Shown here one piece after another: positions 16,290 to 61,322 of a stretch of 64,000 nt of DNA. The position numbers were made by a program, and so were the translations under genes. Source of the stretch: Candidatus Omnitrophota bacterium (lineage in GTDB: Bacteria > Ratteibacteria > UBA8468 > B48-G9 > JAFGKM01); the NCBI GenBank assembly GCA_023819375.1, contig JAMWDI010000004.1, positions 1-64,000 on the forward strand. Direction: 5' to 3'. The notes below the pieces were generated by a model that was given only the letters and a program-made list of their open reading frames with translations, was not told where the DNA came from and made no database searches. The first letter of the stretch is position 1; each line of letters opens with the position of its first letter.

Positions 16290-16465
16290 AAATTTCTCAA
16301 TCTGTTAATCCTTTTTATGAGTATAAAGATAAGAAAGAAAAAGCAAAAATACATAAAAAGTTTGCTCAAAAAGGTTTCTTTTCTTAGAATAAGAGGCCAC
16401 AGAGAAAAAATAGAAATTATAATGAAAACATCTTCCCACAAAGGTGTTTTTTCCCTATTTTTCAC
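16286..16465 (-). CDS. Small two-helix membrane protein, 59 residues
   Basis: A GTG-initiated frame runs from 16465 to a TGA at 16288-16286. The GTG lies within the last codons of the GH130 gene (overlap of 11 bases), and the TGA overlaps the ATG of the TPR lipoprotein gene (ATGA). This nested spacing fits a real, translationally coupled gene. The protein starts [13 protein letters not shown] and has two hydrophobic stretches (VFIIISIFSLWPLIL and LFMYFCFFFLIFILI) separated by RKETFLSK, with a basic tail (KRINRLRNL). It may be a partner of the large permease fusion downstream. No homology is recognised. Confidence 0.6.
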   Translation of the reverse strand: MKNREKTPLWEDVFIIISIFSLWPLILRKETFLSKLFMYFCFFFLIFILIKRINRLRNL

Positions 16466-17444
16466 TCTTTTCTAAAAGTTTTTTTACTTCTTTTAATTCA
16501 ATTTCTGCACATCCAATTCTTTTATCAGCACAGCCATAAAAAATGTAAAAAATATCTTCCTTTATAAATGCACCAGTAGGAAAAACAACATTTGGGATAT
16601 TACCATTTTTCTCCCATTCATAATCAGGTTCAAATAAAGGGAAAGGTAATCTTGATATTTCTTTTTTTGGATTTTCAAGATCAAGAAGAGCAAGTCCTGC
16701 TCTATAAACCCTATTTTCATCAACACCATGATATAACAAAAGATATCCAAATTCAGTTTTAATAGGAGGAGCACCTGCACCAATTTTCATTTTTTCCCAC
16801 TTATATTTAGGTTTCATTACTATGTTTTCTTCAATATTCTTGAAATATTCTTCCCAGAATTCTTTATCTTTAAGTTCAAAAAAATCATTAAAAAAGACAA
16901 TCTGGATGTCAGGTTCAATTCTATGAAGTAAAACATATTTTCCATCTATTTTTTCAGGAAATAGACAACCATCTTTATCCCAGATAATGATATTTTCTCC
17001 TTTTTCTTTTATTTGATTAAGCCAGAAATCCCTGTATCTTTCACTCTTTGAGATATTAAGGGCCTCAAGAAAAGTGATGTTAGGACTTATAATTCCAAGT
17101 TTTTTAAAATCTAAAAGATTTTTTGATTTTGCAACTCCAATCCTTGCATTTTTTCCATCATAAGCAGTATAGGTTAAAAAGTATGTTCCTTCTATTTTTG
17201 TAATTCTTGGATCTTCAATACCTTGTTTTTCGTATTCTTCTGTAGGACACATTATAGGATATTCATATGTTTCAATTGAATTTTCTGGAATAAGTTTTAA
17301 ATATCCCAATCGGGAGTAATTATCACATCTTATTGCTCTATAAATAATATGGACTTGCTCATTTTCAACAATAACTCCTGGATTAAAAACTCCATCCTTT
17401 TCCCAATCAAAACAACCTTCATAAATAAGTTTTTTCCTAACCAT
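16455..17444 (-). CDS. GH130 family beta-mannoside phosphorylase-like protein
   Basis: 329 residues of the five-bladed propeller GH130 type. Visible motifs are [31 protein letters not shown] (the Asp proposed as proton donor in the family), GAGAPPI, LLLYHGV and [22 protein letters not shown]. These enzymes phosphorolyse beta-mannosides in the cytoplasm, and no signal peptide is seen. The start is the ATG at 17444 because the frame upstream runs into the tRNA-Leu gene. The ATG lies only 9 bases after the mature tRNA 3' end, without a Shine-Dalgarno sequence. It overlaps the small membrane-protein gene downstream. Confidence 0.85.
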
Positions 17445-17453
17445 AAAAAAATG

Positions 17454-17535
17454 TGCCGGGAGGGGGACTCGAACCCCCACGGCTTACGCCATACGCCCCT
17501 CAAACGTACGTGTCTGCCAATTCCACCATCCCGGC
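17454..17535 (-). tRNA. tRNA-Leu(GAG)
   Basis: Minus-strand class II tRNA of 82 bases. Acceptor GCCGGGA pairs with TCCCGGC, anticodon stem TACGT/GCGTA closes loop TTGAGGG giving anticodon GAG, and a long variable arm (TGGCGTAAGCCGT) is present. The T-arm has TTCGAGT. The discriminator is A and CCA is not encoded. It lies between glyQ and the GH130 gene in the same orientation. Confidence 0.95.
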
Positions 17536-58546: not shown

Positions 58547-58758
58547 TTTATCCACCTTTCAACAGGATCATAACCACCTTTATTAAATGGATGGCACTTT
58601 AAAATTCTTTTTATCCCAAGAATTAAACCTTTAAATTTATATTTTTCAATAGATTGAAGCATAAATTCTGAACAAGTTGGATAAAACCTACAATTTTTTC
58701 CAAGAATAGGTGAGATTAAAATCTGGTAAAGTTTAATAAGGCATTTCAGTAATTTCAT
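58543..58758 (-). CDS. yidD: Membrane protein insertion efficiency factor YidD
   Basis: 71 residues. [26 protein letters not shown] with [12 protein letters not shown] carries the conserved cysteines of the family. It sits between rnpA and yidC, overlapping both, the classic order. It is an amphipathic membrane-associated protein. Confidence 0.95.
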
Positions 58759-59029
58759 TTTTTATTTCCTTAAATACTCTTTCAATATCCTCAAAATTTT
58801 TATCAATAATTTCTTTTTTCAATACAAAAAGGAAATCTCCTTTTTTAAAATTCTTTCTTATAATTTCTCTTAGATATCTTTTTGCTTTATTTCTTTTTAC
58901 AGGTTTCCCTATTTTTGAAGTTCCTATAAACCCAATTTTTAAATCTTCCCTATTTTTAAAGTAAAGATTAAACAACTTTGTCTCTATTTTTTTTCCTTCC
59001 TTTAATAAATTTTGAATTTTTTTTCTCAT
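58733..59029 (-). CDS. rnpA: Ribonuclease P protein component
   Basis: 98 residues, a little shorter than usual. [20 protein letters not shown] contains the RNR motif (RNxxKRxLRE). The start ATG at 59029 overlaps the rpmH stop (ATGA). It assists RNase P RNA in tRNA 5' maturation. Confidence 0.92.
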
Positions 59030-59160
59030 CCAGCAAGTCTTTTTCTTCCTTTCCTCCTTCTTCTATTTATAATTTTTCTTCCACTCTTTGTTGCCATTCT
59101 TGCTAAAAAACCTATTTTCCTTTTCCTTCTTAATTTATGTGGTCTATATGTTATTGACAT
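59026..59160 (-). CDS. rpmH: 50S ribosomal protein L34
   Basis: 44 residues: [20 protein letters not shown] and [20 protein letters not shown] match L34 throughout. GGAGGTTT precedes the ATG. The gene is short but unmistakable and heads the rpmH-rnpA-yidD-yidC operon, with each stop overlapping the next start. Confidence 0.97.
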
Positions 59161-59209
59161 TTTAAACCTCCATTAAATTAAAAAATAACAAGTGCTGTTT
59201 TTTATTTTA

Positions 59210-59237
59210 ATTTTACATTTTCATTTTTCTGTGTCAA
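59210..59237 (-). promoter_or_regulatory. Promoter of the rpmH-rnpA-yidD-yidC operon
   Basis: On the minus strand TTGACA (59237-59232), 16-base spacer and TAAAAT (59215-59210). The leader of about 43 bases contains GGAGG, unlike the leaderless promoters elsewhere in the window. Confidence 0.72.
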
Positions 59238-59250
59238 TTAATTCCTTTGA

Positions 59251-60012
59251 TTATTTGAAATTTTCAAATTTAATTGACTTTAAATTTTCTAAAAATTTGT
59301 AATCTGTTAAGTTTAAATGTAAAGGAGTTATAGATACATAATCATTTTTAATAGCAGAGACATCACTTTCCATTTCATCTATCTTTTCTTCAAAAAATCC
59401 TTTGAGCCAGAAATAAATATTACCTCTTGGGTCAACCCTTTTTTCATATTCTTCATTAAATCTGCTTTCACTTTGATATGTAATTTTTATTCCTTTTATT
59501 TCATCTATTTCTTTATTTGGGATATTTACGTTTAAGATTGTATCCTTGGGAAATTTGATTGATTTTATTTTCTTAATAATTCTTAAAGATATTTCTGCTG
59601 CTGTTTTAAAATTGAAATTTTTGTAATCTGCAATTGAAATAGAAATTGAAGGAATACCTAAAATTGCACCTTCACTTGCAGCGGAGACAGTTCCTGAATA
59701 AAGAATATCCATTCCAAGGTTTGGCCCTGGATTTATACCTGAAACAACCATATCTATTTTTTCTTTTATGAGTTCTTTAATTCCTATCTTAACACAATCT
59801 ACAGGGGTTCCGCTTACAATATAACATGTAATCCCATTAACTTTTACTTTTTTAACTCTTAGAGGACTTAATAGATTTATTGAATGGCTTGTAGCACTTT
59901 TTTCTGTCTCAGGAACAACAACAAAAACATCTGCAATTTCTTTAAGTTTTTTGTATATGGCCCTTAATCCTTCAGAGAAAATTCCATCATCATTTGTGAG
60001 CAGTATTTTCAT
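59251..60012 (-). CDS. surE: 5'-nucleotidase SurE
   Basis: 253 residues from the ATG at 60012 (MKILLTNDDGIFSEGLRAIY). The metal site is LTNDDG, with SATSHSINL, GTPVDCVKIGI and VSGINPGPNLGMDILYSGTV following. It removes phosphate from nucleoside monophosphates under stress. The start codon is 7 bases after the 3' end of tRNA-Ala; no ribosome-binding site fits between them. A TTG at 60018 is in frame but overlaps the tRNA edge. Confidence 0.95.
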   Translation of the reverse strand: MKILLTNDDGIFSEGLRAIYKKLKEIADVFVVVPETEKSATSHSINLLSPLRVKKVKVNGITCYIVSGTPVDCVKIGIKELIKEKIDMVVSGINPGPNLGMDILYSGTVSAASEGAILGIPSISISIADYKNFNFKTAAEISLRIIKKIKSIKFPKDTILNVNIPNKEIDEIKGIKITYQSESRFNEEYEKRVDPRGNIYFWLKGFFEEKIDEMESDVSAIKNDYVSITPLHLNLTDYKFLENLKSIKFENFK

Positions 60013-60019
60013 TTTCAAC

Positions 60020-60091
60020 TGGAGCAGACCGGATTTGAACCGGCAACCTTCCGCATGCGAAGCGGATGCTCTCCCGTTGAGCTACTGCCCC
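60020..60091 (-). tRNA. tRNA-Ala(CGC)
   Basis: Minus-strand cloverleaf of 72 bases. Acceptor GGGGCAG pairs with CTGCTCC, including the G3-U70 wobble that marks tRNA-Ala. D-arm is GCTC/GAGC, anticodon stem TCCGC/GCGGA closes loop TTCGCAT with anticodon CGC, and the T-arm is GCCGG/CCGGT with TTCAAAT. The discriminator is A and CCA is not encoded. A TAAAAT lies 10 bases upstream as a possible -10 box. Confidence 0.95.
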
Positions 60092-60155
60092 TTTAATTTT
60101 ATTTTACCATAATTTGGTTTTTTTATTTATTAGAAAGTTGGGATAAAATTAAAAT

Positions 60156-61322
60156 ATGAAGAAAGTTGTTATTTTTGGGGCAGGACAAATAGGAAGAGGA
60201 TTTATAGGGGAATTATGTTTTGATTCTAATTATTTTATTGTCTTTGTTGATGTTGATGAGAGAATAGTTGAACTTTTAAATAAAGAAAAAAGGTATATTA
60301 TATACCTTCTCGGTGAAAAAAAGGCAGAAAAGACAATTGAAAACTTTATATGTTTAAATCTTGAAAAAGATAAAAAAAGAATAATTGAAGAAATAGTTCA
60401 AACAGATTTGATATTTACTTCTGTTGGGGCAAAAAATTTATTTACACTTTCGGAAATAATTGCAAAAGGGATAAAAGAAAAATATAAAGTAAATAAAGGT
60501 TTTTTAAATATAGTTATTTGTGAAAATTTGCTTTCAGCAGGTAAGAGATTTAAAGAGGATATTTTAAATAAAGGTTTTTTTTCAAATAAGGAAAGGGAAT
60601 ATTTTGAAGAGAAAGTTGGATTTGTTGAGACAGTTATAAGCAGGATGACATCTCCATTAACAGAAGAAGAAAAAAACCAAAATCCTTTACTTGTTAAAGT
60701 TGAACCTTATAAAATTTTGCCTGTTGATAAAAATGGATTTAAAGGAAAAATCCCTGAAATAACCGGTTTTTTACCTGTAGAAAATTTGAGAAAATATGAA
60801 GAACTTAAACTTTTTGGTCATAATCTTTCTCATGTGACACTTGCCTACCCTGGATTTTTAAAAGGATATAATTATATATGGGAGTGTATAGAAGACGAGG
60901 AAATTTTTAAACTTTTAAGAGATGTTCAGGAAGAGGTTAAAAGAGCCCTTATTGAAAAATATGAATTTGGGATAAAAGAAATTGAAGATTATTTTTTAGA
61001 TTTAAATAAAAGGTTTGACAACAAATTACTCTCTGATACAGTTTTTAGAGTTGGTAGAGATGTTTTAAGAAAAATAGGAAAAAATGAAAGGATAGTAGGG
61101 GCTATAAATTTATGTCTTTCCTATAATATTTTCCCTCAAAATATCTGTTTTGTCCTGGCAAGTTCCTTATGTTATAATTATAATCTTGATGAGGAAGCAG
61201 TTAAACTTCAAAAAATAATTTCAGAAAAAGGGGTTGATTTTGTTCTAAAAGAAATTTGTGAAATTCAAGATGGAAAAGTTATTGAAAGAGTTAAAATTTT
61301 TTATGAAAGGATAAGAAAATGA
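60156..61322 (+). CDS. Mannitol-1-phosphate dehydrogenase-like long-chain polyol dehydrogenase
   Basis: 388 residues. The N-terminal Rossmann motif VVIFGAGQIGRGFIGEL is at residues 4-20. FLNIVICENLLSAGK, FVETVISRMTSP and the C-terminal helical domain with KLFGHNLSHVTLAYPGFLKG (Lys/His/Asn of the active site) match MtlD-type enzymes. It oxidises a sugar alcohol phosphate or uronate-type polyol; the substrate is uncertain. TAAAAT lies 6 bases before the ATG with no ribosome-binding site. Its stop overlaps the next ATG (ATGA). Confidence 0.82.
   Translation: MKKVVIFGAGQIGRGFIGELCFDSNYFIVFVDVDERIVELLNKEKRYIIYLLGEKKAEKTIENFICLNLEKDKKRIIEEIVQTDLIFTSVGAKNLFTLSEIIAKGIKEKYKVNKGFLNIVICENLLSAGKRFKEDILNKGFFSNKEREYFEEKVGFVETVISRMTSPLTEEEKNQNPLLVKVEPYKILPVDKNGFKGKIPEITGFLPVENLRKYEELKLFGHNLSHVTLAYPGFLKGYNYIWECIEDEEIFKLLRDVQEEVKRALIEKYEFGIKEIEDYFLDLNKRFDNKLLSDTVFRVGRDVLRKIGKNERIVGAINLCLSYNIFPQNICFVLASSLCYNYNLDEEAVKLQKIISEKGVDFVLKEICEIQDGKVIERVKIFYERIRK

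Follow-up and report, generated by a model that had tools for sequence, protein, structure and literature searches.

In the genome of a Candidatus Omnitrophota bacterium (assembly GCA_023819375.1), a tRNA gene ends a few nucleotides ahead of the start codon of surE, which raises the question of whether maturation of the tRNA also creates the 5' end of the surE mRNA. We analyzed the window, i.e. the 64,000 nt at positions 1 to 64,000 of contig JAMWDI010000004.1, together with related genomes. A preliminary description had placed the end of tRNA-Ala at 60020 and the start of surE at 60012, with 7 bases between them and no ribosome-binding site. As assessed by ARAGORN and by the sequence itself, these positions are correct, and the spacer contains no Shine-Dalgarno (SD)-like match of at least 4 bases, even though the single 16S 3' end recovered carries a standard anti-SD (GGATCACCTCCTTTCT). 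The features of the junction are as follows.

60101 to 60106, minus strand: TAAAAT, a -10-like box preceded by TGG (extended -10-like), identified by sequence, ending 9 nt ahead of the tRNA gene; likely promoter for tRNA-Ala and surE.
60020 to 60091, minus strand: tRNA-Ala, anticodon CGC (ARAGORN; RF00005, 68.2 bits), discriminator A at 60020, no encoded CCA.
60013 to 60019, minus strand: 7-nt spacer GTTGAAA, without SD; predicted to become the mRNA leader once the tRNA 3' end is cleaved.
59251 to 60012, minus strand: surE, encoding the 5'/3'-nucleotidase SurE (253 aa), ATG start common to the genus (TIGR00087 and NF001492).

Read 5' to 3' on the minus strand, the junction is ...GGTCTGCTCC-A(60020)-GTTGAAA(60019-60013)-ATG(60012) AAA ATA CTG CTC. 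The identity of SurE is secured at equivalog level, with scores of 255.7 bits for TIGR00087 (cut-off 135.1) and 297.6 bits for NF001492 (cut-off 271). We considered an alternative surE start, the in-frame TTG at 60018, which is 1 nt from the tRNA. In two genomes of the genus (G002 and G003), an in-frame stop codon (TAA or TAG) separates the tRNA from the ATG, which excludes such an upstream start there and fixes the surE start at the ATG. Moreover, ATG 60012 is the better start, yielding the M-K/R/N-ILLTNDDG N terminus seen throughout the genus. The gene combines an ATG start with a missing SD, as expected for a leaderless mRNA.

SD use in this genome is moderate: when the start is taken as the first ATG, a match of at least 4 bases precedes 22 of the 44 window genes, compared with 69/243 internal in-frame ATGs. 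Among 22 tRNA-led genes chosen by hand, the SD is missing in 8/9 with a gap of at most 20 nt and present in 11/13 with a gap of 23-55 nt (Fisher p 0.0015), a comparison limited by geometry, which accounts for part of the absence at gaps below about 10 nt, and by two weak SD calls (GTGAT and GGTGAT). Five tRNAs with other same-strand ORFs (L006, L020, L027, L070, and L074) were left out of this set as doubtful or too distant, and it differs from the 21 genes found automatically within 60 nt by one GTG-start gene.

The preliminary description had held that a short gap conserved in related genomes would support function. In all six genomes of the genus that were searched, tRNA-Ala(CGC) is followed by surE on the same strand, with gaps of 7, 10, 7, 7, 7, and 8 nt. 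The spacers (GTTGAAA, GTTTTGGGAA, CAAAAAT, ATAAAAA, ATAGAAA, and CCATAAAA) differ in their letters and keep their lengths at 7-10 nt; the last, from G005, contains an encoded CCA after tRNA-Ala. A gap this short in 6/6 genomes is beyond chance. Outside the genus the picture is mixed. The tRNA-Ala pattern was found in 25 of the 28 genomes of the order and in none of seven genomes from other orders of the class, in which no surE match was found either; overall, SurE was found in 40/61 genomes searched. In 16/25, surE lies within 75 nt of tRNA-Ala (G000-G005, G007, G009, G013, G016, G017, G018, G021, G022, G025, and G026, the last read by eye at a contig end); outside the genus the gaps are wider (18-75 nt). 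In five more (G008, G010, G012, G014, and G019) the two genes are on the same strand and interrupted by other sequence or another gene, over about 0.2-2.3 kb, the G012 distance being taken from contig positions. The contig ends before any surE in G011 and G020, and neither G023 nor G027 has a surE within about 1.45 kb of tRNA-Ala or a match in the genome search. Among 78 named SurE loci outside the order (those with at least 300 nt upstream, from the best 80 of 582 matches, none of these 80 above 51% identity), a tRNA lies within 1 kb upstream in two, both tRNA-Pro, at 122 and 801 nt. In a further 13 loci outside the order, drawn from 20 genomes with a SurE match, three have a tRNA-Pro 23-57 nt before that match. 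Among the loci seen, the tRNA-Ala link is thus a mark of the order, and the very short gap is a mark of the genus. The distance from tRNA-Pro to the SurE match is 45 nt at L050, 23 nt at L053, and 57 nt at L055.

Several features suggest that the two genes are transcribed together. The -10-like box upstream of tRNA-Ala has its counterpart in the five other genomes of the genus, where TATAAT is found 8-11 nt before the tRNA. Throughout this genome, a TA...T box (at most one mismatch to TATAAT, within 26 nt upstream) occurs near the 5' ends of 34/46 tRNAs, as opposed to 7/46 control stretches (-86 to -61). No -35 partner is listed for TAAAAT at 60101 to 60106, and the box does not appear in the output of a two-hexamer promoter scan, which returned 5 promoter-like sites where 7.0 are expected from shuffles, including one strong match, ahead of rpmH. 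The stretch 59000-60400 yielded no terminator-like site, and reading of the six genus sequences revealed no TANNNT box within either the tRNA body or the spacer. Considering the upstream box, the lack of an internal TANNNT box or terminator-like site, and the short gap conserved in the genus, tRNA-Ala and surE are likely co-transcribed, starting at a promoter immediately ahead of the tRNA.

The reading that we favor, with a probability of roughly 0.7, is that tRNA-Ala(CGC) and surE form a bicistronic unit in which 3' maturation of the tRNA would free a near-leaderless surE mRNA and thereby gate its translation. In brief, (i) the promoter just upstream of the tRNA would yield one transcript carrying tRNA-Ala(CGC) and surE, (ii) this primary transcript would fold as a tRNA with the surE mRNA hanging from its 3' end, (iii) endonuclease cleavage at the discriminator or immediately behind it would release the tRNA for CCA addition, (iv) the surE mRNA left by this cleavage would have ∼7 nt of leader at its 5' end, and (v) as this leader is too short for an SD, the mRNA would be translated in a leaderless manner. 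With the tRNA body so near the start codon, binding of the 30S subunit at the surE start would be hampered as long as the transcript is uncut, so tRNA maturation probably gates surE translation. The preliminary description had spoken of a fusion transcript; what the junction implies is better termed a bicistronic tRNA-mRNA transcript that needs cleavage. We also considered feedback between the tRNA and the codon that it reads. Among the Ala codons counted in the window genes, GCG is the least used (28/779), and it is absent from surE, which lends such feedback no support.

Which nuclease would make the cut bears directly on where the mRNA would start. CCA is encoded in none of the 46 tRNAs of this genome; in a control genome (G044), the same script found it in 37/43, and it is visible one register off in the other six. 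Without an encoded CCA, the tRNA 3' end is expected to be produced by an endonuclease that cleaves at the discriminator or immediately behind it. Cleavage at the discriminator would leave an mRNA that begins GUUGAAAAUG and has a predicted leader of 7 nt; the CCA after the tRNA in G005 could move the cut position there. RNase Z scores above the curated cut-off in 0/28 order genomes, but 5 of 14 well-known genomes used as controls also fall short of it, which makes the order-wide absence weak either way. A 252-aa metallo-beta-lactamase protein (L160 1492-2250, G000 C12), whose gene adjoins a sigma-70-like gene named by reading, has RNase Z as its best family match, at 75.2 bits (cut-off 292.95) and with profile positions 153-198 unmatched. 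It weakly matches four solved structures, all of them other entries of the metallo-beta-lactamase type under names different from RNase Z. Similar weak RNase Z matches, none above the cut-off, occur in many order genomes.

An RNase E/G gene, on the other hand, is present at 379.7 bits (cut-off 325.95). The cut might then be made by this enzyme in the A/T-rich spacer rather than by RNase Z at the discriminator, which would place the mRNA 5' end inside the spacer or directly at the ATG. This is a variant of the favored reading and compatible with it. It gains from the clear RNase E/G score and from the RNase Z result across the 28 genomes, read with the same reservation about the controls; the missing CCA in all 46 tRNAs, on the other side, suits a cut at the discriminator, and a divergent protein closest to the RNase Z family does exist. 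On balance we regard a cut by RNase E/G as possible, though with the odds clearly against it.

A somewhat less probable alternative is that the arrangement reflects packing without function: genome compaction would have juxtaposed the genes, surE would be transcribed by read-through, and the 7-nt spacing would be invisible to selection. Short distances are indeed common in compact genomes. In this genome, a same-strand ORF (at least 80 aa, ATG start) begins within 12 nt after 5/46 tRNAs, within 30 nt after 15/46, and within 60 nt after 21/46; the corresponding numbers in G044, the one control genome, are 0, 5, and 6 of 43. The five shortest junctions are tRNA-Ala/surE, tRNA-Gln/glmU-like, tRNA-Arg/TPR-like (named by reading, no family above cut-off), tRNA-Leu/GH130, and tRNA-Glu/TIGR00725. 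Measured against this one control, the surE junction fits a tendency seen across the genome. Two of the three tRNAs in the window have such a junction, the second being the following.

17454 to 17535, minus strand: tRNA-Leu, anticodon GAG (ARAGORN), discriminator at 17454.
16455 to 17444, minus strand: GH130-like gene, ATG at 17444, 9 nt after the tRNA-Leu discriminator.

The preliminary description had counted tRNA-Ala/surE as an independent second case of a fusion transcript in the window, the other presumably being this tRNA-Leu. A joint transcript of tRNA-Ala and surE is likely and a second short junction is present. However, the short tRNA-Leu/GH130 gap is not kept in the other five genomes of the genus, where the tRNA ends roughly 165-525 nt before the GH130 match, which makes the claim of two independent cases weaker and fits packing; the gap is about 18 nt in G006. 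Packing would also account for the wider or interrupted tRNA-Ala/surE gap in other genera. Against it, the spacer keeps 7-10 nt in 6/6 genus genomes despite its differing sequence, as opposed to the 30-90 nt between surE and rpmH in the four measured (G000, G001, G003, and G004), and the tRNA-Ala/surE linkage itself is kept across three families of the order. We therefore consider packing unlikely and retain the bicistronic unit as the better explanation.

The other junctions differ in how widely they are shared. The glmU-like gene is preceded by tRNA-Gln(TTG) in 24/24 loci from 28 genomes searched, with G011, G022, G025, and G027 left out as fragments or weak matches, and this recurrence of the arrangement speaks for the favored reading. 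The gap to the ATG is 5 nt in this genome, about 10-23 nt in 12 of 23 relatives (G001-G005, G007, G016, G018, G021, G023, G024, and G026, some by eye), about 34-64 nt in G006, G010, G017, and G019, and >100 nt in G008, G009, G012-G015, and G020. The tRNA-Glu/TIGR00725 pair occurs in 4/13 loci, all of the genus.

A surE promoter hidden inside the tRNA gene, giving a separate leaderless mRNA, is much less probable than either of the above. Leaderless mRNAs that arise by transcription start are common in Streptomyces, with 264 having leaders <10 nt (PMC4681348), but by reading, neither the tRNA body nor the bases just before the ATG offer a TANNNT box in any of the six genus sequences. A folding switch, in which the precursor would pair its tRNA 5' strand with surE codons 3-5 and its spacer with the D loop, can be virtually discounted: its fold is better than the cloverleaf in this genome (-41.6 vs -36.2 kcal/mol) and the paired surE stretch uses the rare Leu codons CTG and CTC (66 and 55 of 1757 Leu codons in the window genes), but among the six genus genomes folded the alternative is clearly better in this one alone, the cloverleaf being the best fold in four of the others and 0.7 kcal/mol away in G001, and the z-score of the stretch is only -1.78, with 12 of 200 shuffles folding as well. 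In the stretch 59990-60091, surE codons 4-5 (CTG CTC) repeat the CTGCTC of the tRNA 3' acceptor strand, which gives rise to the alternative precursor fold.

How far the putative tRNA-Ala-surE unit extends depends on what follows surE.

59210 to 59237, minus strand: promoter-like TTGACA-16-TAAAAT ahead of rpmH (consensus match only).
59026 to 59160, minus strand: rpmH (ribosomal protein L34), the next gene after surE, named by reading.
58733 to 59029: rnpA, assigned by family model (TIGR00188).
After rnpA: yidD-like and yidC-like genes, named by reading, not by model.

The promoter-like site ahead of rpmH suggests that the transcription unit here is likely tRNA-Ala-surE alone. We had also considered a loop in which tRNA-Ala leads an operon with rnpA, the gene for the RNase P protein; with a promoter-like site preceding rpmH, it is unsupported in this genome. 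The order tRNA-Ala, surE, rpmH, rnpA is kept in many genomes of the order. surE is followed by rpmH in 16/17 loci, the exception being G002, where the contig runs out; an rnpA-like ORF comes after rpmH in 10/10 loci checked by script, six above and four below the TIGR00188 cut-off. A promoter-like site with at least 10 of 12 matches lies ahead of rpmH in 9/10 loci of family f1 and 1/2 of family f3, counts that include this genome and have no shuffle control, and the best match there reaches 8-9 of 12 in the five loci of family f2. In f2, the spacers along tRNA-Ala, surE, rpmH, and rnpA are 18-26, 9-14, and -4 nt (the latter two from four f2 genomes). In that family the unit may therefore run on into rpmH-rnpA, with tRNA-Ala at the head of an operon that also contains rnpA.

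In mitochondria, tRNA punctuation makes mRNA ends by excising tRNAs from one genome-long transcript. The surE junction is alike in that the tRNA abuts the start codon and its excision would leave an mRNA 5' end almost without a leader. It is unlike in that some genes only are concerned, apparently each behind its own promoter and not on a genome-long transcript; with an ORF start within 12 nt at 5/46 tRNAs, this is far from a system in which most mRNA 5' ends come from tRNA excision. We tentatively suggest, as a possibility that we would not rate above an RNase E/G cut, that this uncultured order uses a partial form of punctuation: promoter-driven, tRNA-first transcripts from which tRNA excision, by a divergent RNase Z-like enzyme or RNase E/G, would produce near-leaderless mRNAs for surE, the glmU-like gene, and further genes, whose translation would thereby be coupled to tRNA maturation. 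In f2, tRNA substrate and RNase P protein could share one transcript. If this is true, tRNA processing in these bacteria also sets some mRNA 5' ends, as in mitochondria, tRNA supply is linked to the expression of particular genes, and there is a natural, conserved source of near-leaderless mRNAs.

Leaders <10 nt are classed as leaderless in PMC4681348, and the predicted 7-nt surE leader falls in this class. Unlike the mRNAs counted there, which are defined by transcription start sites, the surE end would stem from tRNA processing. A literature search covering few subscription journals returned no bacterial report of tRNA 3' processing yielding a leaderless mRNA. Enteric bacteria nevertheless have an operon, thrU-tyrU-glyT-thrT-tufB, in which one promoter region serves several tRNA genes and the protein gene that follows them (PMC6134099), and tRNA-Ala and surE are likewise adjacent on the same strand. 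This genome has a parallel of its own, a tRNA-Thr(GGT) 24 nt before an EF-Tu-like gene (named by reading). Unlike the tufB type, the tRNA-Ala/surE gap is 7 nt and has no SD, whereas the tuf-like gene here keeps AAGGAGGT. The tRNA-Ala/surE pair is thus probably a conserved form of the tRNA-mRNA operons known from bacteria, set apart by its predicted near-leaderless mRNA.

Finally, some relatives carry repeats after their tRNA genes. In G002, G003, and G004, a second copy of the tRNA-Leu 3' end lies between the tRNA and the GH130 match. Stretches of about 100-170 nt that end in a second tRNA 3' copy follow tRNA-Leu(GAG), tRNA-Gln(TTG), tRNA-Ala(CGC), and tRNA-Leu(TAG), at L222 579-1056 and just after the tRNA in L220, L221, L171, L181, L202, L040, L042, and L265; a tandem-repeat finder returned no such array in L220, L265, L181, and L202. 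In G002, the post-tRNA unit is 182 nt long and repeated 2.6 times. These repeats are reminiscent of the 178-bp repeats of E. coli tyrT.
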